Positions 526-32,961 of a stretch of DNA of 64,000 nt are shown in pieces. Under the pieces are notes generated by a model. That model did no database searches and had not been told where the DNA came from. It was given only the letters and a program-made list of their open reading frames with translations. The DNA is from Bacteroidota bacterium. GTDB taxonomy: Bacteria; Bacteroidota; Bacteroidia; Chitinophagales; Chitinophagaceae. Numbering within the stretch: the first letter of the stretch is position 1; each line of letters starts with the position of its first letter. Position numbers and translations under genes: made by a program. The DNA lies in contig VGMN01000001.1 of assembly GCA_016866355.1 (NCBI GenBank), forward strand, positions 1-64,000, written 5' to 3'.

Positions 526-1416
526 ATGATATCCGATTCCATCATAATTGAGGAGCAGGGGCTGCGGGATGGTCTTCAGAATTTACCCCGTATTTTACCA
601 TTGAAAATGAAGCTGGATTTCATTTATCGGTTGGTTGATTCAGGAATTCGAAGGATTCAAGTTACGAGTTTTGTACATCCTAAACGGGTGCCTGCCATGG
701 CAGACGCTGAAGAACTATGCGCGGCGCTCCCTCAAGATAAAGATGTGGAGTTTAGCGCACTTGTATTGAACAATAAAGGGCTTGAGCGTGCAGTCGATGC
801 AGGCATTCGTTATGTGGCTGCTTCTATTTCAGCTAGTGATACCCACAGTCGGAAAAATGCCAATAAATCGCTGAGGGATGCCCAAAAAGAATTTAGGGAG
901 GTGACAGCCCTTGCCAGACAACATCATTTAGTAGTAAGGGGGGGATTGCAATGTGTTTTTGGCTGTCGGTATGAAGGAGCAGTTGAGGAAGATTTAATTT
1001 ATAATATTACAAAGTACCAACTGGATTGCGGTGTACAGGAAATGGCATTTGCTGACTCAACTGGTATGGGCAATCCGTTTCAGATGAGGAGAATACTTCC
1101 TCGTCTTCAGGAGATATGCGGCGATGTACCCATTACTCTTCATTTGCACAACACGGAAAACAAAGGATACGCAAATGTTGTGGCAGCTCTTGAGACCGGC
1201 ATTAAACAATTTGATACTGCATATGGTGGTTTAGGGGGATGTCCTTTTATTCAGGGAGCCACCGGAAACATTGCTACAGAGGATACCGTTCACCTGCTTC
1301 ATCAAATGGGGTATACCACAGGAATTGATATTCAAAAAGTGGCAAGCATCAGCCGTGATATGCAAGAATGGCTGGGATCGCCTCTTCCTGGATTGATGCA
1401 CTCTCTTTTAATGTAA
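526..1416 (+). CDS. HMG-CoA lyase-like enzyme (DRE-TIM metallolyase)
   Basis: A 296-aa TIM-barrel lyase of the hydroxymethylglutaryl-CoA lyase family, which cleaves 3-hydroxyacyl-CoA substrates into a CoA thioester and a keto acid. The catalytic RDGLQ motif is at residues 14-18, metal-binding HLH at 206-208 and the signature cysteine loop GGLGGCP around C239, followed by GNIATED. The start is fixed because the RDGLQ motif sits only 13 residues in, as in the family. First gene of an eight-gene operon, 5 bp behind operator 1, with no visible ribosome-binding site. Next to a CoA-transferase and hydratase genes, it more likely cleaves a substituted malyl-CoA or citramalyl-CoA than HMG-CoA; that assignment is inferred. 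Confidence 0.85.
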   Translation: MISDSIIIEEQGLRDGLQNLPRILPLKMKLDFIYRLVDSGIRRIQVTSFVHPKRVPAMADAEELCAALPQDKDVEFSALVLNNKGLERAVDAGIRYVAASISASDTHSRKNANKSLRDAQKEFREVTALARQHHLVVRGGLQCVFGCRYEGAVEEDLIYNITKYQLDCGVQEMAFADSTGMGNPFQMRRILPRLQEICGDVPITLHLHNTENKGYANVVAALETGIKQFDTAYGGLGGCPFIQGATGNIATEDTVHLLHQMGYTTGIDIQKVASISRDMQEWLGSPLPGLMHSLLM

Positions 1417-1443
1417 AATAATTTCTGAATGAATTAATTAATC

Positions 1444-2682
1444 ATGCTACCTCAGACCATTGCAGAAAAAATATTATCAAAACATGTTGGTAAACCGGTC
1501 TATGCTGGAGAGTTATGCGTGGTACCTGTTGATGGTGCAATGGCTACTGATACCACTGGACCACTGGCCATAAAAGCCTTTCGTGAAATGGGTGGAGAAC
1601 GGTTGGCCAACCCTGAGCGATTTCATCTAATCATTGATCACGCAGCTCCGGCTCCCAACGAGCGGATTGCCAACCTTCATCGTATGATGCGAAGTTTTGC
1701 TGAAGAAACTGGGTGTCATTTTTATGATATAGGAAGCGGAATCTGTCACCAGGTTATGGTGGATCATCATCGGGTAAACCCTGGAGAAGTATTTATGGGA
1801 GCAGACAGCCATACACCTACTTATGGGGCGGTCAATGCCTTAGCTTGTGGTGTGGGAAGTACTGATTTAGCAGCTGTTATGTTGACCGGGAAAATCTGGT
1901 TGAAAGTTCCTTCCAGTATACGTGTGAATTTACATGGCCATCATTTGAGGGAGGGTGTAAGCGCAAAGGATATCGTGTTAGAAGTTGTGAAGCATATAAC
2001 TATCAGCGGTGCTAATTATCAATCTGTTGAGTACCACGGAGAGCTATTGCATTATTTAAGTCTTTCTGATCGAATGGTTCTTTGTAATATGGTGGCAGAA
2101 ATGGGGGCAAAAACAGGTATTGTCTCCCCGGAGGGACTTCAACTGCCCTTTAATTTTGAGCCTGTCTTTGCAGATAAGGAAGCTGTATATACTCGTGTGC
2201 TTGATATAGAGGCTGAAACAATTCATCCACGCCTTGCAATTCCCCACTCGCCTGATAATATCCATGATGTGAGTGCTTATGCCGGTACACCTATAACTTA
2301 TGGGTTCATTGGAACATGCACTAATGGGAGGTTACAGGATCTGCAGTCTGCAGCAGCTATACTAAAAAACAAAAAAATCCCTTCAGGAGTAAGACTTGTT
2401 ATTGCACCTGCAAGCCGCCAAGTACTTTTGGATGCTATGAAGGATGGGACCCTGCAAATTCTAATTGAGGCGGGTGCTTCCATCATCAATAGTGGTTGTG
2501 GCCCCTGTGTAGGAACACACGATGGGGTGCCCGGTGACGGAGAAGTTGTGATTAGTGCTGCCAACAGAAATTTCAAAGGACGCATGGGCAATCCTCGTAG
2601 TGATATCTATTTGGCAAGTCCGGCCACGGTTGCAGCCAGTGTTTTATACGGACGAATTACTGTACCAAATCAATCAAACTGA
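1444..2682 (+). CDS. Aconitase/isopropylmalate-isomerase family hydratase, large subunit (first set)
   Basis: A 412-aa LeuC-type large subunit, the length of the two-subunit family that includes 3-isopropylmalate isomerase, homoaconitase, maleate hydratase and dimethylmaleate hydratase. The three 4Fe-4S ligands are present: C292 in GTCTNGR, and C352 and C355 in SGCGPC. The substrate-loop sequence after the CxxC motif (THDGVPGDGE) is intact. The small-subunit gene starts one base after its stop codon. No leucine biosynthesis genes are nearby; the neighbours are a CoA-transferase and an HMGL-like lyase, so hydration of a maleate-type diacid is a better guess than leucine synthesis. Confidence 0.85.
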   Translation: MLPQTIAEKILSKHVGKPVYAGELCVVPVDGAMATDTTGPLAIKAFREMGGERLANPERFHLIIDHAAPAPNERIANLHRMMRSFAEETGCHFYDIGSGICHQVMVDHHRVNPGEVFMGADSHTPTYGAVNALACGVGSTDLAAVMLTGKIWLKVPSSIRVNLHGHHLREGVSAKDIVLEVVKHITISGANYQSVEYHGELLHYLSLSDRMVLCNMVAEMGAKTGIVSPEGLQLPFNFEPVFADKEAVYTRVLDIEAETIHPRLAIPHSPDNIHDVSAYAGTPITYGFIGTCTNGRLQDLQSAAAILKNKKIPSGVRLVIAPASRQVLLDAMKDGTLQILIEAGASIINSGCGPCVGTHDGVPGDGEVVISAANRNFKGRMGNPRSDIYLASPATVAASVLYGRITVPNQSN

Positions 2683-2683
2683 T

Positions 2684-3169
2684 ATGGCAAAGGCACATGT
2701 GTATGGTGACAACATCGATACGGATCGAATCATACCCGGAAAATATACTAAGACACTGGACTTGTCAATGCTTGCGGCTCATGTTATGGAGGACGTAGAT
2801 CCTGCATTTGCTTCACGCTTTCAAGAGGGAGACCTTATTGTTGCAGGAGATAATTTTGGCTGCGGTTCATCCAGAGAGCAGGCACCGCTTGCATTGAAAA
2901 CCGCACAAGTATCATTGGTTATTGCTCGTTTTTTCGCCCGTATTTTTTTTCGTAATGCTATCAACATCGGACTCCCGGTTTTAGAGGTACCGCATCATTC
3001 TATACAAATGGGTGATGAGATCTCATTTAATCTTGCTGAAGGTAAGGTGGTGAACCATACCCGACAGGAAGTTTATCAGGCAACTCCCTTGCCTCCCGTC
3101 ATGTTGAATATCATGCAGGAGGGTGGGTTGGTACCTTATCTTAAAAAATATAAAGATTTCATTCTCTAA
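2684..3169 (+). CDS. Aconitase/isopropylmalate-isomerase family hydratase, small subunit (first set)
   Basis: A 161-aa LeuD-type swivel domain that pairs with the 1444-2682 large subunit. It retains the NIDTD motif near the N terminus and the [12 protein letters not shown] loop that closes the active site. An in-frame open stretch reaches back to 2555, but it lies inside the preceding gene. ATG 2684 gives the usual start ([14 protein letters not shown]). The stop overlaps the ATG of the CoA-transferase by one base, which suggests coupled translation. Confidence 0.85.
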
Positions 3170-4344
3170 TGAGTTTACCACTACAAGATATACTTGTATT
3201 AGAATTTACACATGCCGTGATGGGGCCATCGGCCGGATTAATTTTGGCTGACCTAGGTGCGGAGGTAATACACATTGAACCGGTTGGGGGAGATAGCACC
3301 CGTTTGCTAAAAGGATTTGGACAAGGATTCTTTTCCTTCTACAATCGAAATAAGAAGAGTCTTGCCATTGACATCAAATCTCCTGAAGGCAAAGAAATAA
3401 TTTATCAATTAGTAGCGAAGGCCGATGTACTTATAGAAAATTTTGGACCGGGAACTATGGATCGTTTGGCTTTTGGATATAAAGAATTGAAGAAATTGAA
3501 TCCACTTCTCATATATAACTCACTCAAAGGATTTATGCCAGGCCCGTATGAGAAACGACATGCCATGGATGAAGTAGTGCAGATGATGGGTGGGTTGGCT
3601 TATATGACTGGCAGGCCCGGTGATCCCTTGCGGGCGGGAACCTCCATTGTTGATATTACCGGTGGTATGTTTGGTTGTATGGGAATATTACTAGCTCTCT
3701 ATGAAAGGGGAAAAACAGGAAATGGGAAAATGGTTCGGGCAGGACTCTTTGAAACAACTGCCTTTGTGATGGGACAGCACATGGCGTTAAGTGCACTGAC
3801 ACAGCAGCCCGTTCCTCCAATGCCGGCCCGGTTGAGCCCGTGGAGTATTTATCGTATTTATAAAACCTCCGATCTCCAGCAAGTCTTTATAGGAATCATT
3901 AGTGAAAAACACTGGAAAAGATTTTGTGATGTTTTTCAGCGACAGGACTGGTTATTAGATGACAGACTCCAGACCAATAATCAAAGGGTGGAAGCCAAAA
4001 AGTGGTTTCAACCTGAGGTAGAGAAAATGATAGCCACTTATTCTTTGCAGCAAGTAGTATACAAATGTGATCAGGCTGAAATTACCTATGCACCCATAGC
4101 AAAGACTGAAGATTTATTTACAGATGAACACCTAAATAAAAGTGGTGCCCTGCTAGATATTCAATTAACTAACGGGAAGAATGCGCTTTTGCCCAAGACA
4201 CCCATTGGGTATGAAGGCTCCGACATTAAGCTTCGTACACAGCCACCACGTGTAGGTGAACATACAGAGGAGATACTGGCTGGTTTGGGATTTAGCTCTT
4301 CTGAGATTGATCAATTAAAAGCAAACAATATCATCGCTACATAA
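3169..4344 (+). CDS. Family III CoA-transferase (CaiB/BaiF/Frc type)
   Basis: A 391-aa class III CoA-transferase, which moves CoA from a donor thioester (often succinyl-CoA) to a carboxylic acid through an aspartyl-CoA intermediate. The probable catalytic residue is D134 in HAMDEVVQ. The N-terminal Rossmann-like half (VLEFTHAVMGPSAG, LGAEVIHIEP) and the DITGGMFGCMGILLAL stretch are typical. It sits after the hydratase subunits and before a cyclic amidase. With the HMGL-like lyase at 526 it resembles the activate-then-cleave logic of citramalate or itaconate breakdown. The acid it activates is not known. Confidence 0.88.
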   Translation: MSLPLQDILVLEFTHAVMGPSAGLILADLGAEVIHIEPVGGDSTRLLKGFGQGFFSFYNRNKKSLAIDIKSPEGKEIIYQLVAKADVLIENFGPGTMDRLAFGYKELKKLNPLLIYNSLKGFMPGPYEKRHAMDEVVQMMGGLAYMTGRPGDPLRAGTSIVDITGGMFGCMGILLALYERGKTGNGKMVRAGLFETTAFVMGQHMALSALTQQPVPPMPARLSPWSIYRIYKTSDLQQVFIGIISEKHWKRFCDVFQRQDWLLDDRLQTNNQRVEAKKWFQPEVEKMIATYSLQQVVYKCDQAEITYAPIAKTEDLFTDEHLNKSGALLDIQLTNGKNALLPKTPIGYEGSDIKLRTQPPRVGEHTEEILAGLGFSSSEIDQLKANNIIAT

Positions 4345-4354
4345 ATTATAAACT

Positions 4355-5812
4355 ATGTACGACCTCATCATAAAAAATGTTTTTGTAGTGCAGCCAGGGA
4401 ATGAAGGTTCATTTCATGCTGACATAGCCATCAGTAATGGGAAAATTGAAGCGATTACTCCTTTCATACCAGCTGATCAGGCTCGGCAATTATATGACGG
4501 AAACGGTCAGCTTGCTTTTCCCGGACTGGTAGATGCACATATGCATACGGGGATTTATAATCCGCTTGCTGAGGATGCCTTGACAGAAAGCCGTGCAGCA
4601 GCATCAGGTGGAGTTACCAGCTCTCTGAACTACATGCGAACCGGAAAGTATTACTTGAATAAAACTGGCTCTTATGCGAATTTTTATCCCGAGGTACTAG
4701 ATATATCCAGCAATCGATTTTATGTGGACTATACCTACCATATTGCACCCATCCAGTATAGCCACATTGAAGAGATAGAGCTGCTGCTGGAAAAGTGGGG
4801 TGTGACTAGCTTTAAAATCTTTATGTTTTATGGAAACTACGGACTCCATGGGAACAGTGCTGCACAAAAAGATTTTTTGATGACTCCGGAAGGAGAATTT
4901 TATGATTATGCTCATTTTGAATTTATCATGCGTGGTGTAACAAGGGTTATGGAAAAATATCCAGAGAAAGCTGATAGCATAAGTCTTGGCTTGCATTGTG
5001 AAACAGCAGAGATTATGCGTGCTTACACCCGACTGGTTCAGGAAGAGGGTAAGCTAACTGGACTCAGAGCCTACTCAGCTGCAAGACCTCCCCACAGTGA
5101 AGGGCTGGCTATATTTATTGCCTCCTATCTAGCCAATGAAACGGCGTGTAAAAATATCAACCTATTGCACCTAACCTCTGCCAAAGCCGTTGATGCAGCC
5201 ATGATGATGCAACACGTTTTTCCTCATATCAATTTCAAGCGGGAAGTTACACTTGCACATCTTATACTTGATTATGATTGTGCGTGTGGTGTGCATGCAA
5301 AAGTTAATCCCCCTATTCGTTGCAGGGGGGATGTAGAATATCTCTGGAAGCATCTACTTGCTGGCAATATTGATTGGGTTTGCAGTGACCATGCTTGCTG
5401 CAAGGCGGAAATTAAAACAGATTTAGCTGACAAAAAAAATGTATGGTTAGCTAAAAGCGGTTTTGGAGGAACAGAGTTGTTATTGAGTGGTTTATATACA
5501 GAGGGAATACGCAGAGGTTTATCGGTGAACCGGATAGCTGAATTGTTATCTACGAATCCCGCAAAACGTTTCGGATTGCATTCTAAAGGACAATTATCAG
5601 AAAAGTATGACGGCGATGTGGTATTATTCGATCCTACGCAAATCTTTACTGTTGATTCAAAAGATTCAGAGAGTACACAGGGCTATTCTGTTTTTGAGGG
5701 ACATACGTTTCAGGGAAAAGTTACTGCTACTTTTTTGAGAGGGCAACTAATTTTTGAAAATGGGAAGGTGTTGGGTGAGCCAAAAGGTAATTACTTACAC
5801 AGGCCTTATTAA
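4355..5812 (+). CDS. Dihydropyrimidinase/hydantoinase-type cyclic amidohydrolase
   Basis: A 485-aa amidohydrolase-superfamily enzyme, the size of dihydropyrimidinases. All binuclear metal ligands are visible: H62 and H64 (HMH), a probable carboxylated lysine K154 (SFKIF), H214, H272 and D345 (SDH). Such enzymes open cyclic amides or imides such as dihydropyrimidines, hydantoins, succinimide and maleimide, giving a ring-opened amide. No pyrimidine-degradation partners are nearby. In this operon an imide or lactam that yields a dicarboxylic half-amide is the natural reading. It starts 10 bp after the CoA-transferase. Confidence 0.87.
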   Translation: MYDLIIKNVFVVQPGNEGSFHADIAISNGKIEAITPFIPADQARQLYDGNGQLAFPGLVDAHMHTGIYNPLAEDALTESRAAASGGVTSSLNYMRTGKYYLNKTGSYANFYPEVLDISSNRFYVDYTYHIAPIQYSHIEEIELLLEKWGVTSFKIFMFYGNYGLHGNSAAQKDFLMTPEGEFYDYAHFEFIMRGVTRVMEKYPEKADSISLGLHCETAEIMRAYTRLVQEEGKLTGLRAYSAARPPHSEGLAIFIASYLANETACKNINLLHLTSAKAVDAAMMMQHVFPHINFKREVTLAHLILDYDCACGVHAKVNPPIRCRGDVEYLWKHLLAGNIDWVCSDHACCKAEIKTDLADKKNVWLAKSGFGGTELLLSGLYTEGIRRGLSVNRIAELLSTNPAKRFGLHSKGQLSEKYDGDVVLFDPTQIFTVDSKDSESTQGYSVFEGHTFQGKVTATFLRGQLIFENGKVLGEPKGNYLHRPY

Positions 5813-5825
5813 TTTGTAAAAAATT

Positions 5826-6602
5826 ATGGAATTACATCTCAAGGATCAACTATTTATTGTCAGTGGTGCTACATCAGGTTTTGGAAAAGCGATAACCGAA
5901 CAATTACTAAAGGAAGGAGCCAACATCATTGCAATAGCCAGAGGAAAGGAAAAATTAGAAGCCTTGCAAAAGGTTGCTCCGGATAAAGTGACCATTGTAT
6001 GTGGAGATATTTCTTCCGACGAGTGTCGCCAGCAATTGATGGATGTTAAGCAGGACAAAGTGGTACATGGACTTGTTATCAATGCCGGTGGCCCTCCGGC
6101 AAAGACTGTAATGGAAACTTCTGCTTCCGATTGGGATGATGCCTACCGACTGCTTTTACGATGGAAAGTATTGCTGGTACAGCAATTTGTACCGGGTATG
6201 ATAAAAAACAAGTATGGAAGAATTCTTTTTATTGAGAGTGCTGCGGTAAAGCAACCTTTAGAGAATTTGGTATTAAGTAATTCGTTGCGGGCCGGTGTAG
6301 TGGGTATGGTAAAAACTCTTTCACAGGAGATAGCATCCACTGGCGTGACATTAAATGTAATGGCCCCCGGTTCTCACAGCACGCCTGCTATTGATAGAAT
6401 TTATAAAAAGAAAAGCGAACAAACGGGAATACCATTTGAACAAGTAAGAGACACCGCTATACAGCAAATTCCAGTTGGGTTTTTAGGAGAGGCTTGTGAC
6501 TTCGCATCACTGGCTGTCTGGTTGTTGAGCCCATCCAGCAGATTTATTACGGGACAAACTATTTCTGTTGATGGTGGTGCAGTTAAGGGTATTATGGGAT
6601 AA
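5826..6602 (+). CDS. Short-chain dehydrogenase/reductase with altered active site
   Basis: A 258-aa classical-fold SDR. It keeps the nucleotide-binding TGxxxGxG equivalent (SGATSGFG, 13-20), the NAG motif (86-88) and the C-terminal SVDGG. The catalytic YxxxK is missing: after S138 the expected Tyr/Lys positions read S151 and R155 (SNSLR). Members with this substitution form a divergent SDR group whose chemistry I cannot name. It may be a reductase with a different acid/base, or a non-redox family member. It lies between the cyclic amidase and the transporter. Confidence 0.75.
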   Translation: MELHLKDQLFIVSGATSGFGKAITEQLLKEGANIIAIARGKEKLEALQKVAPDKVTIVCGDISSDECRQQLMDVKQDKVVHGLVINAGGPPAKTVMETSASDWDDAYRLLLRWKVLLVQQFVPGMIKNKYGRILFIESAAVKQPLENLVLSNSLRAGVVGMVKTLSQEIASTGVTLNVMAPGSHSTPAIDRIYKKKSEQTGIPFEQVRDTAIQQIPVGFLGEACDFASLAVWLLSPSSRFITGQTISVDGGAVKGIMG

Positions 6603-6653
6603 ATTAAAGATCCTCTGTATTAATTATTTTGATGAACGATTAATTTAGTATCT

Positions 6654-7889
6654 ATGAGAAAATATTATTGTTGGGTGGTACTTGCCTGTCTTTTTTTGAT
6701 GTACATGGCAAGCAATGGAATTGTACTCAATACATTTAATCTCTATCTGCCTGAATTTGCAAAAGAATTCAATGTTGATATAGGAAAGGTAACTGGTTTA
6801 GCCGCTACACTATATTTAGTATTAGCCCTGCCACTTCCATTTGTAGGGAACCTGCTTGAGAAATTTTCTACTAAAAAGATAATTTTAGTTGGTGCTTTTG
6901 GTGTTGCTTACGGATTATACTATTTGTCAACTGCGACCAGTTTCAAAATGATTCAGCTCTTTGTTATTATTTATCCTCTTTTTCTCTGTTTAGTTGGCTT
7001 GCTTACCAGTATGTATGTAATCAATAACTGGTTTGTGAAATATAGGGGTATTGCCACTGGAATTTTATTGATGGCAAGTAGTGTAGGACCTGCCATTTTT
7101 GCCCCTATAGTGGGGAAATGGATTAAGACACTCGGTTGGCAGGCTGCTTTACAAAACCAATATATCTTGTGTAGTGGCTTGATTGTATTACCGGCTTTAT
7201 TGATTTATAGTCACCCATCCCTTATCAATAGTTCTGCGGATGGTATTCCAGGTACAGTAGGCAGGCAGCCTGTAATTGATAAAATATCCAGCAAGATTTT
7301 ATTAAAGAAAGCCCTGTTATCATTGGATTTTTATATGGTCGCCTTGATTACTGCTGCACTCTGGTTTTGTATCGGCGGATTCATTCAAAATCAGCGCAAT
7401 TATCAGGCGGACCTTTATTTAGATGTGGCAGAAAGCGGAAGACTCCAGGGTATTTTTTTTCTTTTCGGTCTGTTGGGAAAATTGATATTTGGTTATCTGG
7501 GAGATAAATTCAGCGTAAGGAAAATAATGTTGCTAAGCGTATTCAATATGTTACTGGGATGTTTACTTCTATACTGGAGTTTACAAGATTCCCGTTGGAT
7601 CATTCCCTGTGCGATAATTTTTGGATTAGGTTATAGTGGTACTTTTACAATGATACAATTATACATCATTGATCTGTTTGGTGGTGCAGCTTATGGAACC
7701 ATATTGGGTTTGTTATCTTTTATAGATACGCTTTGTGCGTCGATCGGAGTAGCCATGTTGGGTTCGATGCGAAAGATGAATGGAAACTATGAAAAAGCAT
7801 TTCTTTTAATGATAGTACTGACAGTTTTTTCACTACTGGCAACTTTTTATATTAATCGGCGTGCTCAAAAAGAAGCCATGTCACTTTAA
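6654..7889 (+). CDS. Major facilitator superfamily transporter (first)
   Basis: A 411-aa polytopic protein with about twelve hydrophobic segments and an MFS-type cytoplasmic loop after the second segment (EKFSTKKIILVG). The general appearance is that of the oxalate/formate or monocarboxylate-type MFS group. It is in the MarR-terminated operon, so it is probably the inner-membrane permease for the substrate or an intermediate, or an exporter of an end product. It is unlike the second MFS protein at 31738. Confidence 0.8.
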   Translation: MRKYYCWVVLACLFLMYMASNGIVLNTFNLYLPEFAKEFNVDIGKVTGLAATLYLVLALPLPFVGNLLEKFSTKKIILVGAFGVAYGLYYLSTATSFKMIQLFVIIYPLFLCLVGLLTSMYVINNWFVKYRGIATGILLMASSVGPAIFAPIVGKWIKTLGWQAALQNQYILCSGLIVLPALLIYSHPSLINSSADGIPGTVGRQPVIDKISSKILLKKALLSLDFYMVALITAALWFCIGGFIQNQRNYQADLYLDVAESGRLQGIFFLFGLLGKLIFGYLGDKFSVRKIMLLSVFNMLLGCLLLYWSLQDSRWIIPCAIIFGLGYSGTFTMIQLYIIDLFGGAAYGTILGLLSFIDTLCASIGVAMLGSMRKMNGNYEKAFLLMIVLTVFSLLATFYINRRAQKEAMSL

Positions 7890-7900
7890 AAAATGCTTGT

Positions 7901-8368
7901 ATGCTTAAAAAAAATTTAAACGCATCGGTAGTGCTTCACGCTATTAAGTTTTCTGAAACTTGGAAAAAAAATGGTGATCTGATCATCCAGCAATTTGGTA
8001 TCACCATACAACAGTGGTTCATTTTATTGTTATTAGCAAAAGATCCTAATATTTTATATTTCAAACTCCATCCACATATCAAGCCGCTAATGGCGAAGGA
8101 GCTAGCTGATGCCATGAACGTAAGCCGAGCCAATATTACCAACATGTTGAATGTGCTGATCAGGAAAAAACTGGTAGTAGCAATCAGTGATAAGGTTGAC
8201 AAAAGGCGGAAACGATTATCACTTACCTCACAAGGCATGCTGCTGGTAGAGAAACTGGAAAAGCTTCGGTATGCCTACAATAATCAGATATTATCTCAGT
8301 TTTCAATTGAGGAGAAGAGGCAGTTCATTCGATTTGTTGATGTTTGCCTGCATATCATGCATGCCTGA
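7901..8368 (+). CDS. MarR-family transcriptional regulator
   Basis: A 155-aa winged-helix regulator. The recognition region MNVSRANITNMLNVLIRKKL is followed by the wing DKRRKRLSLTSQG, both typical of MarR. MarR proteins bind short palindromes as dimers and usually release them when a small aromatic or acidic ligand binds. It is the last gene of the operon that starts at operator 1, so it would regulate itself. As the only regulator within 526-32961 it is the best candidate to bind the five TAGTTAA-N5-TTAACTA sites. Its stop is 15 bp from the converging gene at 8384. Confidence 0.88.
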   Translation: MLKKNLNASVVLHAIKFSETWKKNGDLIIQQFGITIQQWFILLLLAKDPNILYFKLHPHIKPLMAKELADAMNVSRANITNMLNVLIRKKLVVAISDKVDKRRKRLSLTSQGMLLVEKLEKLRYAYNNQILSQFSIEEKRQFIRFVDVCLHIMHA

Positions 8369-8383
8369 TGCTTTAGGATGCCT

Positions 8384-9022: not shown

Positions 9023-9028
9023 ATTTCT

Positions 9029-22973: not shown

Positions 22974-22990
22974 TAAATAATTATAAAACT

Positions 22991-24320: not shown

Positions 24321-24342
24321 CTTGATACATAAACTTTTCATC

Positions 24343-24651: not shown

Positions 24652-24656
24652 AATGA

Positions 24657-25496: not shown

Positions 25497-25499
25497 TGT

Positions 25500-27563
25500 A
25501 TGAAATTAGGAATTGATATTGGCGGAACATTTACTGACCTAGTTTTGCTGGAGCCCAGTTCCGGCCAATTATTTTTTGGAAAAACACTTACTACTTACCC
25601 TGATCCGACACTTGGTATTCTGAATGGTTTAAAGGAACTCATGTCTTTGCATGGGAAATCAGTGGCAGAAGTAAATACCATAATTCACGGAACCACACTT
25701 GTCACAAATGCCATAATAGAGCGTAAGGGGGCACTAACTGCATTATTAACTACGGCAGGATTTGAGGATGTGTTAGAAATAGGGCGTGAGATGCGGTATG
25801 ATATCTATGATATTTTTATTCGCATGCCCTCACCGCTTGTTCCCGCAGCATTGCGAAAAGGAATCAAAGAGCGGGTAGATGCTTCAGGAAGAATTTTAGA
25901 TTCACTAAACGAGGTCGAAGTGATTGAGACTTTAAAAGCGTTGGTAAAAAAAGGAGTGCGTGCGGTGGCTATTTCACTTTTGCATTCATATGCAAATCCC
26001 TCCCATGAAAAAAAAATCGGTAAAATCATACGATCGCAATTTCCAACTCTTTCCTTCTCGCTGAGCTCAGAAATAATGCCCGAAATCAGAGAATATGAAC
26101 GCACCAGCGCAACTGTAATGAATGCCTATGTTCAACCACTTACCGGCCACTATCTTTCTCAGCTGAAAGCTATTTTATTTGACACTGGCTTTAAAGGGCA
26201 ACTGCACATCATGAATTCCGCCGGACGACTTACCACTGTTCAGGGAGCCTGTAAAGCCCCCATTCAGTTACTGGAGAGCGGACCTGCCGGTGGAACCATG
26301 GCCGGTGTTTTTTACGGAGAATTATTGAAGAAAAAAAATCTGTTGGCATTTGATATGGGTGGTACCACTGCCAAGGCATCAATCATTCGCAACGGGCAAC
26401 CCGAGATCACCAACCATTTTGAGGCGGCCAGAGAAAAGAGGTTTAAAAAGGGCAGCGGTCTTCCTGTTCGTATACCGGTTATTGATATGATTGAAATTGG
26501 TGCAGGCGGAGGTAGTATAACTAGCGTCAATCACCTCGGGTTGCTTACAGTTGGGCCTAAGAGTGCTGCTTCTGAACCCGGCCCCGCCTGTTACAACAGG
26601 GGTGGGGAGCTGCCAACTGTTACTGATGCCGACTTGGTACTTGGCTTTCTAAACGAAAGTTATTTTTTAGGAGGCACCATGCAACTTAAACGTGAAAAAG
26701 CACGAGCAGCCATCAAAAAACATATTGCCTCCCCGCTGGGTATTTCTATTGAGGAAGCCGCCTGGGGGATACATCGGTTGGTGAATGATAACATGGCCAA
26801 TGCAGCACGTGTCCACATCATCGAAAAAGGGCTTGATCCCCGTTTGTTCTCCATGATGGCTTTTGGTGGTGCAGGACCGGTACACGCCTACCATGTTGCC
26901 CAGCAACTGAACGCCCCCCAGCTAATCATTCCCGCTGGTGCGGGGGTGCTCAGTGCTATGGGCTTTTTAGTGAGTCCTATCGCAACTGAGGAAATTACCA
27001 GTTATATCAGCACCCTACAACAAATTAATTGGACACACCTGCAAAAGAAACTAGATGGTATGAATAAAAAAGGCAGACAGTTTCTCAAAAAGGCTGGGAT
27101 ACCAAACACCCGAATGAGTATGAAGGTACTGGCTGATATGCGGTATGCAGGGCAGGGGCATGAGATCAGCGTTTCTCTACCTGGCATTAAATTATCCGAA
27201 GCCTCAATTCCTACAATTACCCGTGCTTTCAAAGAGGAATATCGATTGCGTTATGGAAGAGATATGGAAGGAATACCCATAGAGGCAGTTACCTGGAGGG
27301 TGCTTGTAAGTGGACCTCTTACAACACTTCACCCTAAACAGTCAGTTGTTGGGAAGCATACGCTTCCCTTGAAAGGGAAAAGAAAGGTATTTTGGGGTAA
27401 GAAGTATGTTGACACGCCTATATATGATCGTTATTTGTTAAAGCCTGGACAACGAATTCAGGGTCCGTGTATAATTGAAGAGTTTGAAAGTACAACCATC
27501 GTGGGCGAAAAAGGTATCGTTTCCTGCGATAAGTACAATAACCTAATTATGGAGCTATTATGA
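25500..27563 (+). CDS. hyuA: Hydantoinase/oxoprolinase alpha subunit (HyuA-like)
   Basis: A 687-aa protein with the actin-like ATPase motif DIGGTFTD at residues 5-12, a second phosphate motif LAFDMGGTTAK, and the C-terminal ESTTIVGEKG region. HyuA works with HyuB in ATP-driven opening of cyclic amides (5-oxoproline, N-methylhydantoin) and in acetone/acetophenone carboxylation. The partner hyuB is at 27976, separated by a small exported protein. ATP-dependent lactam opening would suit a pyrrolinone ring; that choice among family reactions is inference. Confidence 0.88.
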   Translation: MKLGIDIGGTFTDLVLLEPSSGQLFFGKTLTTYPDPTLGILNGLKELMSLHGKSVAEVNTIIHGTTLVTNAIIERKGALTALLTTAGFEDVLEIGREMRYDIYDIFIRMPSPLVPAALRKGIKERVDASGRILDSLNEVEVIETLKALVKKGVRAVAISLLHSYANPSHEKKIGKIIRSQFPTLSFSLSSEIMPEIREYERTSATVMNAYVQPLTGHYLSQLKAILFDTGFKGQLHIMNSAGRLTTVQGACKAPIQLLESGPAGGTMAGVFYGELLKKKNLLAFDMGGTTAKASIIRNGQPEITNHFEAAREKRFKKGSGLPVRIPVIDMIEIGAGGGSITSVNHLGLLTVGPKSAASEPGPACYNRGGELPTVTDADLVLGFLNESYFLGGTMQLKREKARAAIKKHIASPLGISIEEAAWGIHRLVNDNMANAARVHIIEKGLDPRLFSMMAFGGAGPVHAYHVAQQLNAPQLIIPAGAGVLSAMGFLVSPIATEEITSYISTLQQINWTHLQKKLDGMNKKGRQFLKKAGIPNTRMSMKVLADMRYAGQGHEISVSLPGIKLSEASIPTITRAFKEEYRLRYGRDMEGIPIEAVTWRVLVSGPLTTLHPKQSVVGKHTLPLKGKRKVFWGKKYVDTPIYDRYLLKPGQRIQGPCIIEEFESTTIVGEKGIVSCDKYNNLIMELL

Positions 27564-27976
27564 AAAAAAATCTAATTTTTTTGATAATATATTTTCTTCC
27601 AGGAATAGTTTTTTCACAGTCCGCCAGGGAAATTTTGCAGTTGACGGTAGCTGCATCCGGTGGAAGTCTATGGCAACAACCGAAAACATTGGAGCTACAT
27701 GGTACGGCTTTATTTACACCATATGGAAAGTATGACTATGGCAGCCAAAAGCAATTAGATACTTATTCAATGTACCGCATATTTCCAGGTGATAACAAAG
27801 CTGCACACCAGGCAAATGGAAAAATCAGGTTTGATGCCGCAATTGGCGAACAGGTTTTCATGCAACCGCGGAGGGTGAGATTATTTTTTGATGGTGTACG
27901 GTGGATGGAAATTCATTGGGAGAAGAATTCCGTTAATCAGCCTATTGCTGATGAAGTTTTTTCACTGGCAAAGTAA
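27560..27976 (+). CDS. Small exported protein of unknown function
   Basis: A 138-aa protein with a signal peptide (about residues 1-20, ending VFSQS). I do not recognise the family. The mature part, QLTVAASGGSLWQQPKTLELHGTALF then IRFDAAIGEQVFMQPRRVRLFFDG, has the alternating pattern of beta strands and looks like the N-terminal half of a larger LolA-like exported protein, so it may be a shortened version. It overlaps hyuA by four bases and touches hyuB by one, so it is translationally coupled between the two subunits. Confidence 0.6.
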   Translation: MKKNLIFLIIYFLPGIVFSQSAREILQLTVAASGGSLWQQPKTLELHGTALFTPYGKYDYGSQKQLDTYSMYRIFPGDNKAAHQANGKIRFDAAIGEQVFMQPRRVRLFFDGVRWMEIHWEKNSVNQPIADEVFSLAK

Positions 27977-29574
27977 TGACAATGAGAAGGAAAAAATCAC
28001 TGAAACGTTTTGATGCCATTGAATTGAGTATTCTCTGGAGCCGCCTCATTTCATTGGTGGATGAAGCAGGAACTACATTACAAAGAACAGCCTTTTCGTC
28101 AGTAACACGCGAGAGTGCGGATTTTGCTGTAGTGTTAATGGATTCTGGAGGTCAGTCTATTGCTCAAAGTAGCGTAAGCGTACCTTCCTTTCTAGGTGTG
28201 ATGCCTTTTTTGGTCAAGGCACTGATTAAGGATTATTTTCCTTTGTCTGTATGGAAGGAGGGAGATGTAGTTATTACAAATGACCCCTGGTTATGTGCGG
28301 GGCATAAGCCTGACATCGGGATTGTTACCCCCATCTTTCGAAAGAAACGGCTCATCGGATTTATAGGTTCCATTGCACATTCTCCGGACATCGGTGGAAC
28401 TCTTTGGGGTGCTGGAGCTAAAGATTTTTATGAGGAAGGTTTATACATCCCGCCAATGAGACTTTTTGATAAGGGGGTAAAAAATGAAACAATTTTTTCA
28501 CTGATCGCTTCAAATGTGAGGGCACCAGGGCAAACCATCGGTGATATTTTGGCACAGGTGGCTGCCAACGACCAAGGTATTCGGGGATTACACAGAGTGA
28601 TGGATGAAAGCTTGCTTGATGAAATTGATGAGTTGGGCGAAAGCATTATACAATCCTCTGAAAAAGCCATGCGCGATGCAATTCGCAAAGCACCCGATGG
28701 AATTTACAAGTCAGTTTATCAGGCAGATGGTGATGGAATCAAGGAACCTATTCAGTTCGTTTGTACTTTAACCATTCAGGGGGATGAGATTGAAGTGGAT
28801 TATGCAGGCACATCTCCCGCGCATTCACTGGCAATTAATGCGGTATTGAACTATGTTTTTGCCTACACAGCTTACCCTATAAAATGTATTTTTAGTCCGG
28901 AGGTTCCCAATAACGAGGGCAGTTTTAGACCCATTCGTGTTTCGGCCCCCGAAGGTTGCCTGCTTAATGCAAAAAAGCCTTCCCCGTTAGGAGCGCGAAA
29001 TGTGACAGGAAACTTATTGCATGGACCAGTGGTCAAAGCCTTGTCACTAGCGGTTCCCGATCAGGTGCAGGCTGATTGCGGAGCAGCTGTATGGGTAATG
29101 GTATTAAGTGGCAAAAGAGAAGATGGTTCGGAATACGTAGAATATCTCTTCCTTGCAGGAGGCTATGGAGGAAGAAAAGGATTAGCGGGTCCCCCCACAC
29201 TGTGCTATCCGACAAATGTGGCGAATGTGCCTGTGGAAGTTTTCGAGCACGATGCACCCGTATTGGTGACTGAAAAAAGTCTCATAAGGGGAAGCGGAGG
29301 TAATGGTGAATACCCCGGGGGGGAGGGTCAACGATTTGCCTATAGGAATATAGGTGCTCTCCCCATTCATATAAGTAATGTAACGGAAAAAATCAATCAT
29401 CAGGCCTATGGATTATTAGGGGGTTTTCAAGGTAAGAAAGGAAATTTATATGTACGAACAGCCGCAGGTGAAAAACGATTTACTCCACCAAAAGGTCATG
29501 ACTACCTCCAACCGGGCGAAGAACTGGTTATGGAATTACCTGGTGGAGGTGGTTATGGAAGGCCAAAAGGATAA
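27976..29574 (+). CDS. hyuB: Hydantoinase/oxoprolinase beta subunit (HyuB-like)
   Basis: A 532-aa HyuB-type subunit: an N-terminal DEAGTTLQRTAFSSVTRESADFAVVL, VVITNDPWLCAGHKPDIGIVTPIF, and a C-terminal ELPGGGGYGRP. It forms the catalytic partner of HyuA at 25500. Both subunits are full length, so the complex should be functional. Alternative starts are the two Met codons at positions 1 and 3. Confidence 0.88.
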   Translation: MTMRRKKSLKRFDAIELSILWSRLISLVDEAGTTLQRTAFSSVTRESADFAVVLMDSGGQSIAQSSVSVPSFLGVMPFLVKALIKDYFPLSVWKEGDVVITNDPWLCAGHKPDIGIVTPIFRKKRLIGFIGSIAHSPDIGGTLWGAGAKDFYEEGLYIPPMRLFDKGVKNETIFSLIASNVRAPGQTIGDILAQVAANDQGIRGLHRVMDESLLDEIDELGESIIQSSEKAMRDAIRKAPDGIYKSVYQADGDGIKEPIQFVCTLTIQGDEIEVDYAGTSPAHSLAINAVLNYVFAYTAYPIKCIFSPEVPNNEGSFRPIRVSAPEGCLLNAKKPSPLGARNVTGNLLHGPVVKALSLAVPDQVQADCGAAVWVMVLSGKREDGSEYVEYLFLAGGYGGRKGLAGPPTLCYPTNVANVPVEVFEHDAPVLVTEKSLIRGSGGNGEYPGGEGQRFAYRNIGALPIHISNVTEKINHQAYGLLGGFQGKKGNLYVRTAAGEKRFTPPKGHDYLQPGEELVMELPGGGGYGRPKG

Positions 29575-29604
29575 TTTTGATTATTTTTCAAAAAAAAAGA
29601 ACTT

Positions 29605-30804
29605 ATGTCTTATCAGCTCCCTCCTGTATGGACAAAATTGCAGCAACATGCTGTATTTCCTGAATTTAATCATGATGAAAGAGCCAGATACAATTTTCTT
29701 GCTAATCTAAATCGATATGTGAGCACCGTGATTGCTCCGGGTAATAAACTGGCTTACGATAGAAGAGTAGAGCCCAACTTTGTGAAAGAGCATGACCGAA
29801 GTTTTAAAGATAGGTTTGAACTTGGTGAAGCCATGAAGCAAGATTCCATTTATCAGATGTGGGCAGCACTCCGCAGGAGTACTATGGAAATGCGACAACA
29901 AAATGGCAGAGCGGTGGTATTAAGGCAGGCGGAACAACTTGCTTCGAAAGTAGCAGAACTACTCAAGGGCAATGATAGCTTACAACTAAAGGATGATTTC
30001 ATGGTTCCACCGTACCTCACTCATGTTGATAACCATTTGATGCCTGGAAGTTATCATACAGAATATTTTTCGGGTGATGTTTCCAACGCAGCAAATTATG
30101 ACAGTGGTTTGTTTGTTACTAGCGGTGGTATGTTGGGAAGTCTTACCGATGGAGGAGGTCGAGCCATTGCAGCATGGGTAAAAGAAACTTATCCGAATTT
30201 CCATCCTAAAAGAATTATGGATGTTGGTTGCGGGTTGGGACATAATACACTTCCAATTGCGCAGGCTTTTCCCAACGCGGTAGTGATTGGAATTGATGCT
30301 GGGACTCCTATGTTGAGGTACGGAGCTGCCAGAGCTCACTCACTGGGTGTACATAACGTAAAATTTATCCAGGCTGATGCTGCCGACATGAAAGAGTTTA
30401 CCGATGAAAGCTTTGATTGGGTACAGACTACCATGTTTCTTCACGAGACGGGCGGAAAATCTATACATGCCATTTTTAATGAGATCAAACGGATCTTAAA
30501 AAATGGCGGACTCAATCTCCATATTGAACAACCTCAGTATACCTCTGACATGAGTATGTATGAGCAATTCATGCGCGACTGGGATGCTTATTATAATGCA
30601 GAGCCATTCTGGGGGCATATGCATGATCTAGCTCCTGTAGATCTGATGGAGGAGGCAGGTGTACCCAGAGATAAGTTTATGCAGGTAGGGGTGAAGGCTA
30701 TCAATGACCTGGATAAAAATAAACGAGATGGTAAGGTCACGGAGGACTACGGTCGGAGTCCAATATGGAATGTTTTTGGTGGATGGAAATCTGCTACTAA
30801 TTAA
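29605..30804 (+). CDS. Class I SAM-dependent methyltransferase
   Basis: A 399-aa protein whose second half is a Rossmann-fold methyltransferase, with SAM motif I at about 206-213 (DVGCGLGH), an acidic motif II (VIGIDAGTPML), and FDWVQTTMFLHETGG as motif IV. The first 200 residues are an extra domain that I do not recognise. Methylation would be odd in a pure catabolic route, so it may modify the substrate, act on a toxic intermediate, or be repurposed. Nothing identifies the acceptor. Confidence 0.82.
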   Translation: MSYQLPPVWTKLQQHAVFPEFNHDERARYNFLANLNRYVSTVIAPGNKLAYDRRVEPNFVKEHDRSFKDRFELGEAMKQDSIYQMWAALRRSTMEMRQQNGRAVVLRQAEQLASKVAELLKGNDSLQLKDDFMVPPYLTHVDNHLMPGSYHTEYFSGDVSNAANYDSGLFVTSGGMLGSLTDGGGRAIAAWVKETYPNFHPKRIMDVGCGLGHNTLPIAQAFPNAVVIGIDAGTPMLRYGAARAHSLGVHNVKFIQADAADMKEFTDESFDWVQTTMFLHETGGKSIHAIFNEIKRILKNGGLNLHIEQPQYTSDMSMYEQFMRDWDAYYNAEPFWGHMHDLAPVDLMEEAGVPRDKFMQVGVKAINDLDKNKRDGKVTEDYGRSPIWNVFGGWKSATN

Positions 30805-30831
30805 GAATTGACTTTTTTAAAATTAGATGAT

Positions 30832-31251
30832 ATGAAAACAGAGTTAAGTGGATCCCATGCGGGTGCTTCCATTTCTGAAACCTCACCAGTAGATACAATG
30901 AATGATATTGTGATGGCAGGAAATAAAAGTAAGGGGGGGCGCCCTTATTTTTTAGAAGATCCTGCTGTTGAGCGTGTACTTAATATTTCCATGGCTATTG
31001 CTGCCGACCTTGCTGTCTTGCATGAAAGACTTGATACGATTGAAAGATTGTTAGAGGCAAGGGGTCACCTAAGCAGAAAAGATATTGAGGCATTTGTACC
31101 CGATGATTCTGTTGCTGAGGAAAGACAAACCTGGCATGCTCGCTTCAGTGCCCGCATTCTGCGGATTATACAACAAGAAGTTGAAGCAGTAGCCAAGCCA
31201 GAAAATAATGTGCCTATGCGCACCATCGCAGATGAGATTAATGAAATGTAA
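30832..31251 (+). CDS. Hypothetical protein, cytoplasmic
   Basis: About 139 aa from ATG 30832; an in-frame TTG at 30808 is less likely. No signal peptide or membrane segment. The middle is rich in helical heptads (ERVLNISMAIAADLAVLHERLDTIERLLEARG), which suggests a coiled coil. I do not recognise it. Its position between a methyltransferase and a SnoaL-like gene suggests a small accessory or scaffold protein. Confidence 0.6.
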   Translation: MKTELSGSHAGASISETSPVDTMNDIVMAGNKSKGGRPYFLEDPAVERVLNISMAIAADLAVLHERLDTIERLLEARGHLSRKDIEAFVPDDSVAEERQTWHARFSARILRIIQQEVEAVAKPENNVPMRTIADEINEM

Positions 31252-31282
31252 TAAATTTTCACCTTGCTGTAATCTTTGAAAA

Positions 31283-31729
31283 ATGATGCAATCTCCTGTT
31301 GCTGCCATTAACGATCATTATAGGGTAATAATTGAAAAAGACCTAAGTGGAATTTTATCCAAATATGTTGCTGATGAACAAACCTATGTTGTGTTGGAAG
31401 GTCCAAGGCTTACCTCAAAGGGATACACTAAAGTAAGTAAGGGTTGGAGTGATTTTTGTCTTTCTCCCATTCAGCTTAATTGTGTTGATTGGGTTGAAGG
31501 TCCTTATGCTGAGCAGTCAGCTGAAATGTCATGGGTGAGTGGGGTCATTCGTTTACAAGTTCAAATAAGTAATCAAACTTTTTATAACATTTTCAGGGCA
31601 AGTTTTGTGTTGGTACGTAAAGCAGATCAGTGGCTGATTCACCATGAACACATATCCATCGTACATCCTGACCCCTATGGTATAGGTGATTGGCTAAAGC
31701 AGTCCACACCTCTCCCCGAAACATCTTAG
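31283..31729 (+). CDS. SnoaL/NTF2-like fold protein
   Basis: A 148-aa protein with the cone-shaped NTF2-like pattern: an N-terminal helix (INDHYRVIIEKDLSGILSKYV), strands, then VRKADQWLIHHEHIS. Family members include polyketide cyclases, dehydratases and isomerases, and many have no known activity. There is no signal peptide. It lies eight bases before the MFS gene. Confidence 0.7.
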   Translation: MMQSPVAAINDHYRVIIEKDLSGILSKYVADEQTYVVLEGPRLTSKGYTKVSKGWSDFCLSPIQLNCVDWVEGPYAEQSAEMSWVSGVIRLQVQISNQTFYNIFRASFVLVRKADQWLIHHEHISIVHPDPYGIGDWLKQSTPLPETS

Positions 31730-31737
31730 AAAAAAAT

Positions 31738-32961
31738 ATGAACGAAAAGGTAGGTAGAAAGGCAATCGTCGGAGTAATAGTTTCTGCACTTGGTTTTTTT
31801 GTGGATTTGTATGATATCATCATTTTCAGTGCGGAGAGAGTAGACAGCTTCAGCTCTTTATCAATTCCGGAGTCAGACTGGCCTACTCATACTAGAGATA
31901 TTTTAAATGCCCAAATGCTCGGCATGCTGATTGGTGGTTTTCTTTGGGGAACTATCGGAGACAAAATGGGACGATTGAAAGTTTTATTTGGCTCGATATT
32001 GGTGTATAGCATTTTTACACTTTTGAATGCTTTCGTAAAAGACGTAGACAGTTATATGTGGTGTAGATTTTTGGCCGGTCTTGGGTTAGCGGGAGAGTTG
32101 GGAGCAGGCATTACGTTAGTTAGTGAGCAAATGCCTGGAAAATTTAGAGGAATGGCAGTTGCGTTGGTAGGTGGAATAGGTATGCTTGGAGCTGTAACTG
32201 CGGGTATTATCGCTACATTTTTTAGTTGGCAAACTAGTTTCATAATTGGTGGTTTACTAGGGATCGTGTTGTTGCTGCTGCGTTTCAGCGTAGTGGAGAG
32301 TGGACTTTTTACGGGAATGGGATCAAAGCAAGTAGCAAAAGGTGATTTCAGTATTATATTGAGAAGCCGAAATAGATCTTGGAAATTTCTTTGTGTTTTA
32401 CTTGTTGGTATGCCCGGTTGGTTTGCTACCGGAGTTCTAATCACCTTTACCAGAGAAATTGCAGGCAGTATGGGAATGACAACATTGCCAGTAGCAGCTA
32501 CAGTAATAACATTCAATTTTCTCGGCTTCGCATTCGGAGATCCACTCTGTGGTTTTTTGAGTCAATACTTAAAAAGTAGAAAGAAGGCTATATTTATATT
32601 TCTTGCCTCTTATAGTTTTTTTATTGCTTTATTTTTTCTTTTTGCAAGTCAATCAATTTTCCTATACTATCTTTTATTTGCGTTTATGGGTCTCAGTGTC
32701 GGCTTTACTATCATGTTACTTACACTTACCGCAGAGCAATTTGGTACCAATATTAGGACTTTGGTAACCAGTTCTGCTCTTAATCTCATTAGAGGTTGGG
32801 TCATCCCCTTGAGTTTCGCCTTTCAATGGGGGGCAGTCTGGTTCAATGGGAATTATTATTACAGTGCAATCTTGATTGCGACCGCAGCCTTGGCTATTGC
32901 ATTTTTTGCCCTCTCGCAATTAGAGGAAACCTATCACAAGAATCTCGATTTTTATGAGTAG
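31738..32961 (+). CDS. Major facilitator superfamily transporter (second)
   Basis: A 407-aa MFS permease from ATG 31738; the upstream TTG at 31690 lies inside the preceding gene. The motif GTIGDKMGRLKVL after the second segment and GLGLAGELGAGITLVSEQMP in the fourth to fifth segments resemble the metabolite:H+ symporter branch that carries aromatic acids and organic acids. Last gene of the cluster, followed by an IS remnant. With the other MFS protein at 6654 the cluster has two inner-membrane routes. Confidence 0.82.
   Translation: MNEKVGRKAIVGVIVSALGFFVDLYDIIIFSAERVDSFSSLSIPESDWPTHTRDILNAQMLGMLIGGFLWGTIGDKMGRLKVLFGSILVYSIFTLLNAFVKDVDSYMWCRFLAGLGLAGELGAGITLVSEQMPGKFRGMAVALVGGIGMLGAVTAGIIATFFSWQTSFIIGGLLGIVLLLLRFSVVESGLFTGMGSKQVAKGDFSIILRSRNRSWKFLCVLLVGMPGWFATGVLITFTREIAGSMGMTTLPVAATVITFNFLGFAFGDPLCGFLSQYLKSRKKAIFIFLASYSFFIALFFLFASQSIFLYYLLFAFMGLSVGFTIMLLTLTAEQFGTNIRTLVTSSALNLIRGWVIPLSFAFQWGAVWFNGNYYYSAILIATAALAIAFFALSQLEETYHKNLDFYE

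Follow-up and report, generated by a model that had tools for sequence, protein, structure and literature searches.

A block of about 32 kb, at positions 526 to 32,961 of the 64,000-nucleotide stretch analyzed here (the window; contig VGMN01000001.1 of a Bacteroidota bacterium in the Chitinophagaceae), is probably, as judged from its gene content, an island of genes that break down a large nitrogen-heterocyclic compound. The middle of the route it would encode leads, with good probability, from a cyclic imide through a half-amide, a substituted maleate, a substituted malate and a CoA ester to a lyase step that yields propionyl-CoA. A tetrapyrrole is the tentative choice of substrate; several lines of evidence fit it and none shows it. 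Intact families and conserved neighborhoods are what was observed, and from these we infer every reaction and substrate named below.

The genome comprises 1.76 Mb in 36 contigs and is 96% complete. Open reading frames (maps were built on longest frames, not gene calls) and family profile searches recovered intact, with Pfam or NCBIfam matches, all genes named in an initial annotation of the window, including the CpeT-like and RedY/HapK-like proteins, both of which scored above their family cut-offs (Table 1). The island additionally encodes HyuA/HyuB, two SDR dehydrogenases, a VOC-fold protein, a DUF1838 protein and a TonB receptor. The initial annotation had also arranged the families into a series of steps. 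Imide opening by the cyclic amidase at 4355, hydration of substituted maleates by two hydratase sets, activation by the CoA-transferase and cleavage by the HMGL-like lyase each gained comparative support, as detailed below; the nitrilase-family protein at 10447, which had been given the removal of nitrogen, gained no such support.

A pattern scan of genome contigs with the two-domain VOC-fold protein (Unk14877, the core protein) matched 35 loci in other genomes; all were retrieved with this protein, so its presence there is by construction. The loci spanned the Chitinophagales, Saprospiraceae, Flavobacteriaceae (Maribacter, Aquimarina, Croceitalea) and one Kapabacterium; according to their records, L015 is from Lake Pavin and L012 from sheep duodenum. 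The closest named relative, at 88% identity, came from a Chitinophagaceae metagenome-assembled genome (L009). Several neighbors were common to most loci: the reductase was found in 30/35, the nitrilase-family protein in 29/35, the alpha/beta-hydrolase in 28/35 and the MarR regulator in 27/35, with some loci ending at contig borders. Exceptions were L014, which shared only the query protein within the locus, and L043, a 4-kb contig.

Wider flanks contained two modules: module A (HMGL-AcnL1-AcnS1-(CMD)-CaiB-imidase-transporter) and module B (DUF3598-AcnL2-AcnS2-HpcH-HapK-SDR2-HyuA-HyuB-methyltransferase-u30808-SnoaL). Three members of the Flavobacteriaceae-level set, namely Maribacter vaceletii DSM 25230 (G039), G078 and G267, carried both modules in a single stretch of ~65-75 kb. 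The flavobacterial islands L089-L093 and L097 also held two or three members of the flavin amine-oxidase family, whose N-termini look Tat-like by eye, along with formylglycine-generating-enzyme-like proteins and multiple copies of DUF1838 and CpeT.

The imidase position of module A was occupied by either of two families. Across 36 genomes (the 35 locus genomes and the window genome), the allantoinase/hydantoinase-like CycAmid was found in 13 (E<=1e-90), PuuE1 in 21 (E<=1e-60), and both in none. These and the other co-occurrence counts across genomes carry no correction for relatedness, and the hypergeometric chance of zero overlap (~5e-8) overstates the case, since CycAmid and PuuE1 are divided largely along clade lines; exceptions are two loci in PuuE1 genomes, L011 of the Chitinophagales and L027 of the Saprospiraceae. 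In the L011 genome the PuuE1 frame contains one internal stop, and G041 and G051 have partial CycAmid matches. Because the two families, both of cyclic amide or imide chemistry, never co-occur, they seem to fill one slot despite being unrelated. CycAmid H62, H64, K154, H214, H272 and D345, which we take to be metal ligands, were conserved in 8/8 aligned rows, giving the HxH, Lys, two His and Asp pattern, and the protein fell below the NCBIfam AllB equivalog cut-off (223.5 versus 357.9 bits). Replacement and neighborhood together lead us to propose CycAmid as a cyclic imide hydrolase. An isochorismatase-family protein (ISOCH; E<=1e-20) occurred in exactly the 21 PuuE1 genomes, with D41, K135 and C168 in 17/17 rows and a match to 3ot4/3uao at 1.7e-17; 3uao is presumably a maleamate amidohydrolase. 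In the PuuE1-bearing relatives, this enzyme is a likelier candidate half-amidase than the nitrilase-family protein. Cyclic imidases are known among PuuE-related proteins. An imide route in which an amidase acts after a PuuE/HpPgdA-related imidase is established for HxnM/HxnN of fungal nicotinate breakdown, in the available text of PMC9304392.

Two aconitase-family hydratases appear to have been inherited together. Of the same 36 genomes, 33 had a pair of AcnL-type matches (E<=1e-60), of which one shared 72-100% identity with AcnL2 and the other 39-46%; the weaker match adjoined HMGL in the wider regions mapped. AcnL2 was 72-96% identical in 32 of the 35 related genomes, with one fragment besides. 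AcnL1 carried the three Fe-S cysteines (C292, C352, C355) in 19/19 rows, and its partner AcnS1 carried GSSRE in 19/19 rows and YTKT, presumably the recognition-loop residues, in 18/18 readable rows. In homoaconitase the loop Arg reads the distal carboxylate, so the loop Lys of AcnS1 would fit a substrate with an extra carboxylate. GSSRE binds the substrate and the flexible loop sets preference, according to the available text of PMC7308503. AcnL2 had its cysteines (C302, C362, C365) in 13/13 rows, and in AcnS2, which reached 91 bits against the LeuD/DmdB cut-off of 109, AGGGKSIEH replaced GSSRE in 11/11 rows.

CoA activation and cleavage are assigned to CaiB and HMGL, also from comparisons of sequence. 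The CoA-transferase matched the family III profile and kept D162 in 22/22 rows. HMGL scored 291 bits against a cut-off of 246 for the NCBIfam HMG-CoA lyase subfamily and carried the full signature (R14, D15, H206, H208, C239) in 18/18 rows. An HMGL ortholog (54-63% identity) was found in 16 of the 17 genome handles searched, the window genome included, and was absent from G045; G020 and G049 are apparently one genome (same coordinates and scores), so the 17 handles stand for 16 genomes. Thirteen of the 16 handles with the ortholog also held another HMGL-family protein at 24-30% identity.

HMG-CoA-lyase-type lyases yield an acyl-CoA and a keto acid. A cell that splits a methyl-substituted malyl-CoA would thus have to dispose of both propionyl-CoA and a 2-oxo acid, and carboxylase, mutase and dehydrogenase genes were found as expected. 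Propionyl-CoA carboxylase genes adjoined the island in six flavobacterial regions (L023, L026, L029, L033, L035, L092), and methylmalonyl-CoA mutase lay beside it in all of these but L023 (Pfam was run on L092 only). Among the wider regions, seven held a 2-oxoacid dehydrogenase E1 and six an E2 (Pfam on L064 only). This comparative evidence supports propionyl-CoA as a product.

Sphingomonad plasmids combine genes of modules A and B in rearranged order, which suggests that the modules are parts of one pathway. Homologs of the methyltransferase-fold protein (49-50% identity) were found on eight sphingomonad plasmids; four sphingomonad regions were retrieved and three compared. A single 31-kb stretch of Novosphingobium humi (L084) encoded ISOCH (65%), PuuE1 (48%), PuuE2 (38%), HMGL (39%) and CaiB (48%), together with SDR2, HapK, the methyltransferase, u30808 and AcnL/AcnS (31/36%). 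It further encoded MmgE/PrpD and an arylmalonate-decarboxylase-family protein; maleate isomerases are relatives of that family. Sphingomonas JE1 (L082) had HapK-SDR2-methyltransferase-u30808 plus distant HyuA/HyuB (36/29%), and Sphingobium TomTYG65 had annotated CoA-transferase, LeuC-type and LeuD-type genes ~17 kb from SDR-HapK-methyltransferase-like genes. A plasmid search with AcnL2 gave, among the best 20 of 547 records, identities of 38-44%, the annotated ones being named isopropylmalate dehydratase; the same kind of search with the core protein gave no match. Sphingomonad and flavobacterial islands also shared a 240-residue DUF3108-like protein at 41-43% identity (L084 9128-9853, L082 1-714, L064 14829-15566). 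In a Novosphingobium, a HapK-like gene was up 1.9-fold with a lignin dimer in the available text of PMC4609964, a change too weak to weigh.

Taken together, the genes would form the following route. The compound or its fragments would be imported by the TonB receptor and MFS transporters, and its backbone may be broken by VOC-fold enzymes, flavin enzymes and double-bond reductases. Five-membered fragments would become cyclic imides or lactams with a methyl and one other substituent. CycAmid, or PuuE1/PuuE2 in relatives, would open the imide to a half-amide, and HyuA/HyuB may open a related ring with ATP. A half-amidase, of the isochorismatase family in the PuuE version, would release ammonia and leave a disubstituted maleate, which one of the two hydratases would convert to a disubstituted malate. 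CaiB would form the CoA ester, which the HMG-CoA-lyase-type enzyme would split into propionyl-CoA and a 2-oxo acid, with HpcH acting in a second branch. Methyl-ethyl-maleimide, for example, would give propionyl-CoA and 2-oxobutyrate.

If one substrate has to be named, the best guess is a linear tetrapyrrole, or else the products of its oxidation. Oxidation of chlorophyll and heme yields hematinic acid and methyl-ethyl/methyl-vinyl maleimides, according to the available text of PMC7318184. Two hydratase sets would fit because two maleimide types arise. Ring-opened hematinic acid is, by our own reasoning, a methyl-homoaconitate, which would suit a homoaconitase-like hydratase and predicts propionyl-CoA plus 2-oxoglutarate. 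Complete breakdown of tetrapyrrole rings (bilins, chlorophyll or heme remains), with a hematinic-acid-type and a methyl-ethyl/vinyl-type branch, ring carbon ending up in propionyl-CoA and 2-oxo acids and nitrogen leaving as ammonia, is a possible though still tentative account. Diverged lipocalin-like proteins would then handle the pigment, and two degenerate hydrolases would have new roles.

Gene distribution points the same way in part. In 299 genomes from the family of Maribacter vaceletii, one set of three genomes accounted for every occurrence of the core protein (E<1e-130), of DUF1838 and of CpeT in multiple (3-4) copies; a core match in a fourth reached merely E=3e-4. In the order of the window genome, the core protein was found in 4/248 genomes, all four with CpeT, which gives modest support. 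CpeT presence alone was set aside as a marker, being found in 57/248 genomes of the order and 22/299 of the family set; only multi-copy CpeT tracked the island in the latter. By its family, the CpeT-like protein may handle a bilin. A second protein, hyp8384, may be a distant CpeT relative, but its match to the CpeT group when profiles were compared was weak (E=1.7e-4, probability 49%).

Predicted models were compared with known structures for DUF1838 and the core protein. The DUF1838 model (predicted local distance difference test, pLDDT, 91.9) is firmly a beta-barrel, and that firmness extends to the barrel only. It resembles calycin barrels at VIA Z 8.0-9.7, including BFA1 (9.7), the CpeS lyase 4tq2 (9.1) and nitrobindins (~8); Foldseek TM-scores were low, at most 0.44, and Foldseek alone was uninformative. 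The Unk14877 model (pLDDT 71.4, with 81 residues under 50) has the paired beta-alpha-beta VOC fold, matching 1zsw in Foldseek (1.8e-10), with VIA Z 17.0 both to 1zsw and to the 2,6-dichlorohydroquinone dioxygenase 4huz. Residues of the kind that form the 2-His-1-carboxylate iron site of VOC extradiol dioxygenases (H213, H214, H263, H305 and E336) were invariant in 29 rows; the model did not show where a metal would sit.

Two of the island's most conserved members are degenerate hydrolases. In the nitrilase-family protein, aligned to aliphatic amidase and YLR351C, E62 was kept, and the catalytic Lys and Cys were replaced by R138 and S179 in 32/32 rows, and on these residues it was rejected as the amidase of the nitrogen-releasing step. 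In the alpha/beta-hydrolase, the nucleophile was Ala in 31/31 Bacteroidota rows (GxAxG in place of GxSxG) and His in 4/4 sphingomonad rows; as a chlorophyllase of the serine esterase type it was rejected. The core is therefore not a simple series of hydrolases, and a serine chlorophyllase is not there.

The loss of these residues weighs against an imide route fed by tetrapyrroles, as do several other observations. The genomes of L018 and L019 (2/36) had the core protein and neither imidase, two of the 36 had no AcnL-type match and one an AcnL2 fragment only, and no half-amidase was found in the CycAmid version of the window. AcnS2, without GSSRE, may do something else, possibly a new activity. 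Heme oxygenase, Rieske oxygenase, chlorophyllase and bilin reductase were not seen among the proteins scanned, which were not every protein, and the three sphingomonad stretches compared had no CpeT, DUF1838 or core protein match. In the 299-genome set, 19 genomes had a single, higher-scoring CpeT without the core protein, and three of the four core-positive genomes of the order, including the window genome, had a single PF06206 match, the other having two. Outer-membrane and designed barrels reached VIA Z 8.6 for DUF1838, and many different ligands are known for calycin barrels. Ureides are also among the compounds on which the PuuE, allantoinase and N-carbamoylsarcosine-amidase families act. 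In leaves, hematinic acid was detected and the maleimides were not, within the available text of PMC7318184.

Some of these points favor another substrate. The alternative that survives best, although unlikely, keeps the imide and maleate chemistry and assumes a different N-heterocycle (pyridine-, indole- or alkaloid-like) opened by VOC-fold enzymes, on the model of 2,5-dihydroxypyridine converted through N-formylmaleamate to maleamate. The VOC-fold proteins do resemble ring-cleaving dioxygenases, the ISOCH match to 3ot4/3uao would suit a maleamate product, and the missing CpeT in the sphingomonad stretches is as expected. However, this alternative has no ready account of two imidases plus HyuAB, of the island's link with DUF1838 and multi-copy CpeT, or of the propionyl-CoA genes.

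Ureide or hydantoin catabolism, in which the ring opened by CycAmid/PuuE would be hydantoin- or allantoin-like and a carbamoyl group would be taken off by the isochorismatase-family enzyme, is improbable. Allantoinase, PuuE and N-carbamoylsarcosine amidohydrolase were among the best named matches, and AllB/PuuE replacement is familiar in purine breakdown. However, the NCBIfam allantoinase and PuuE matches were under their cut-offs, a transaminase was not among the recurrent gene clusters of the related loci, and the two hydratases, the CoA-transferase and the HMG-CoA-lyase type would go unexplained. Still less probable is a biosynthetic island making a pigment or tripyrrole-like product: the HapK and CpeT families are known from such clusters and a methyltransferase-fold protein is present, but the TonB receptor, MarR regulator, transporters, hydrolases, lyases and propionyl-CoA disposal genes indicate breakdown, and polyketide, peptide-synthetase or pyrrole-building genes were not seen among the scanned proteins. 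Chance placement of amino-acid biosynthesis or leucine breakdown genes is very unlikely: the parent families are LeuC/LeuD and HMG-CoA lyase, and at the threshold applied the window genome showed no separate LeuC, but scores fell under the LeuC equivalog cut-offs, most handles with the HMGL ortholog hold a second HMGL-family protein, G020 has a LeuC-like protein apart from both hydratases, and the gene set is kept together across phyla; leucine or lysine biosynthesis was rejected for the aconitase pairs on scores, gene neighbors and separate paralogs.

Table 1. Features of the proposed catabolic island, in window coordinates.
Feature	Position	Strand	Evidence
HMG-CoA-lyase-family lyase (HMGL)	526..1416	+	PF00682 4.7e-38; NCBIfam HMG-CoA lyase subfamily; PDB 1ydo 5.5e-64
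AcnL1, homoaconitase/isopropylmalate-isomerase-type hydratase large subunit	1444..2682	+	PF00330; TIGR01343 511 bits
AcnS1, first hydratase small subunit	2684..3169	+	PF00694; TIGR02087 LeuD/DmdB 198 bits, cut-off 109
CoA-transferase family III (CaiB-like)	3169..4344	+	PF02515 4.3e-103
CycAmid, allantoinase/hydantoinase-like cyclic amidohydrolase, proposed imidase	4355..5812	+	PF07969/PF01979; allantoinase profile 4.5e-66, below cut-off
SDR dehydrogenase 1	5826..6602	+	PF13561
MFS transporter 1	6654..7889	+	PF07690
MarR-type regulator	7901..8368	+	PF12802
hyp8384, possibly distant CpeT-like	8384..9022	-	no Pfam family; profile comparison with CpeT group
Aldehyde dehydrogenase	9029..10450	-	PF00171
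Nitrilase-superfamily (CN_hydrolase) protein, catalytic residues lost	10447..11493	-	PF00795; alignment
FAD flavocytochrome-c-type oxidoreductase	11558..12988	+	PF00890
Alpha/beta-hydrolase fold protein without Ser nucleophile (GxAxG)	12996..13832	-	PF00561
MDR double-bond reductase, curcumin-reductase type	13876..14880	+	PF16884/PF00107; NF058644 348 bits, cut-off 440
Unk14877, two-domain VOC-fold protein, core marker	14877..15995	+	no sequence family; predicted model
DUF1838 beta-barrel protein	16005..16871	+	PF08894 1.8e-70; predicted model
CpeT-family protein	16911..17873	+	PF06206 95.7 bits, cut-off 21
TonB-dependent receptor	17974..20883	-	PF00593, PF07715
DUF3598-like protein	21182..21670	+	PF12204 2.8e-4, 21.7 bits, just under cut-off 22; recurs beside AcnL2
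AcnL2, second hydratase large subunit	21705..22973	+	PF00330 2.1e-87
AcnS2, second hydratase small subunit, AGGGKSIEH for GSSRE	22991..23527	+	PF00694 6.5e-6
HpcH/HpaI aldolase	23559..24320	+	PF03328 3.6e-26
RedY/HapK-like protein	24322..24651	+	PF11639 28 bits, cut-off 25
SDR dehydrogenase 2	24657..25496	+	PF13561
HyuA, ATP-dependent hydantoinase/oxoprolinase A	25500..27563	+	PF01968, PF05378; caprolactamase alpha 548 bits, cut-off 1000
Small protein u27560	27560..27976	+	open frame, no family; 31-51% to related-island proteins
HyuB, hydantoinase/oxoprolinase B	27976..29574	+	PF02538 2.9e-140
SAM methyltransferase-fold protein	29605..30804	+	PF13649
u30808, small protein after methyltransferase	30808..31251	+	48-57% in three sphingomonad regions
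SnoaL-like protein	31283..31729	+	PF13474
MFS transporter 2, aromatic-acid type	31690..32961	+	TIGR00895 116 bits, below cut-off; PF07690

Downstream of the island, positions 33350-39019 form a stretch of low G+C content (about 34-36%) whose translations, read by eye, suggest a PepSY-type membrane protein, HisI-like and GTP-cyclohydrolase-I-like genes, a TonB receptor and a Fur-family regulator; it could be a metal-starvation regulon. A frame at 39164-39568 (minus strand) resembles a very-short-patch-repair endonuclease (named by eye) and lies near a tRNA-Ser at 39732-39820.

Chlorophyll is made and broken down on a scale of 10^12 kg per year, according to the available text of PMC7318184. In searches of the open-licence PMC literature, no bacterial genes that take pyrrole rings to central metabolites were found, nor any description of the assembled route or island. 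If the tetrapyrrole substrate is correct, a tetrapyrrole breakdown cluster has spread over Bacteroidota, Kapabacteria and sphingomonad plasmids, and AcnL2/AcnS2 with AGGGKSIEH, the VOC protein at 14877 and DUF1838 would be markers for the organisms that recycle tetrapyrrole carbon and nitrogen. Even with another substrate, a route from imide to propionyl-CoA that uses two hydratases and exchanges one imidase for another would be new biochemistry, and whatever the substrate, so would catalytically degenerate hydrolases kept across a phylum.

Each enzyme family is already known; a description of the route as assembled here was not found in the open-licence literature searched. CpeT resembles the CpeT/CpeS bilin lyases by Pfam, and the DUF1838 model resembles CpeS among other barrels, but the island proteins have signal-peptide-like N-termini (by eye), are diverged, and occur in several copies per flavobacterial island; we know of no phycobiliprotein in island-bearing organisms. 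HMGL is like HMG-CoA lyase in family score and in its full catalytic signature; it differs in forming a distinct group, with a branched malyl- or homocitryl-CoA as proposed substrate. AcnL1S1 shares with homoaconitase and isopropylmalate isomerase the Fe-S cysteines, GSSRE and the recognition loop, but its loop reads YTKT, its scores lie under the equivalog cut-offs and its neighbors are different, while AcnS2 has lost GSSRE. Nicotinate fermentation proceeds via dimethylmaleate, on which DmdAB, a LeuCD-like two-subunit hydratase, acts as on a disubstituted maleate. This is the precedent for the LeuCD-like two-subunit hydratase of the island, which differs from that pathway in a lyase of another family (HMGL/HpcH), an added CoA-transferase and two hydratases instead of one. 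Like the PuuE version, the imide routes of the Pseudomonas putida imidase and, in the available text of PMC9304392, of HxnM/HxnN in Aspergillus nidulans start with an imidase related to PuuE/HpPgdA and continue with an amide hydrolase. The window has a hydantoinase-type enzyme in the imidase position, and in the island these two steps would lead on to hydration by an aconitase-type enzyme, activation as a CoA ester and cleavage of the HMG-CoA-lyase type.

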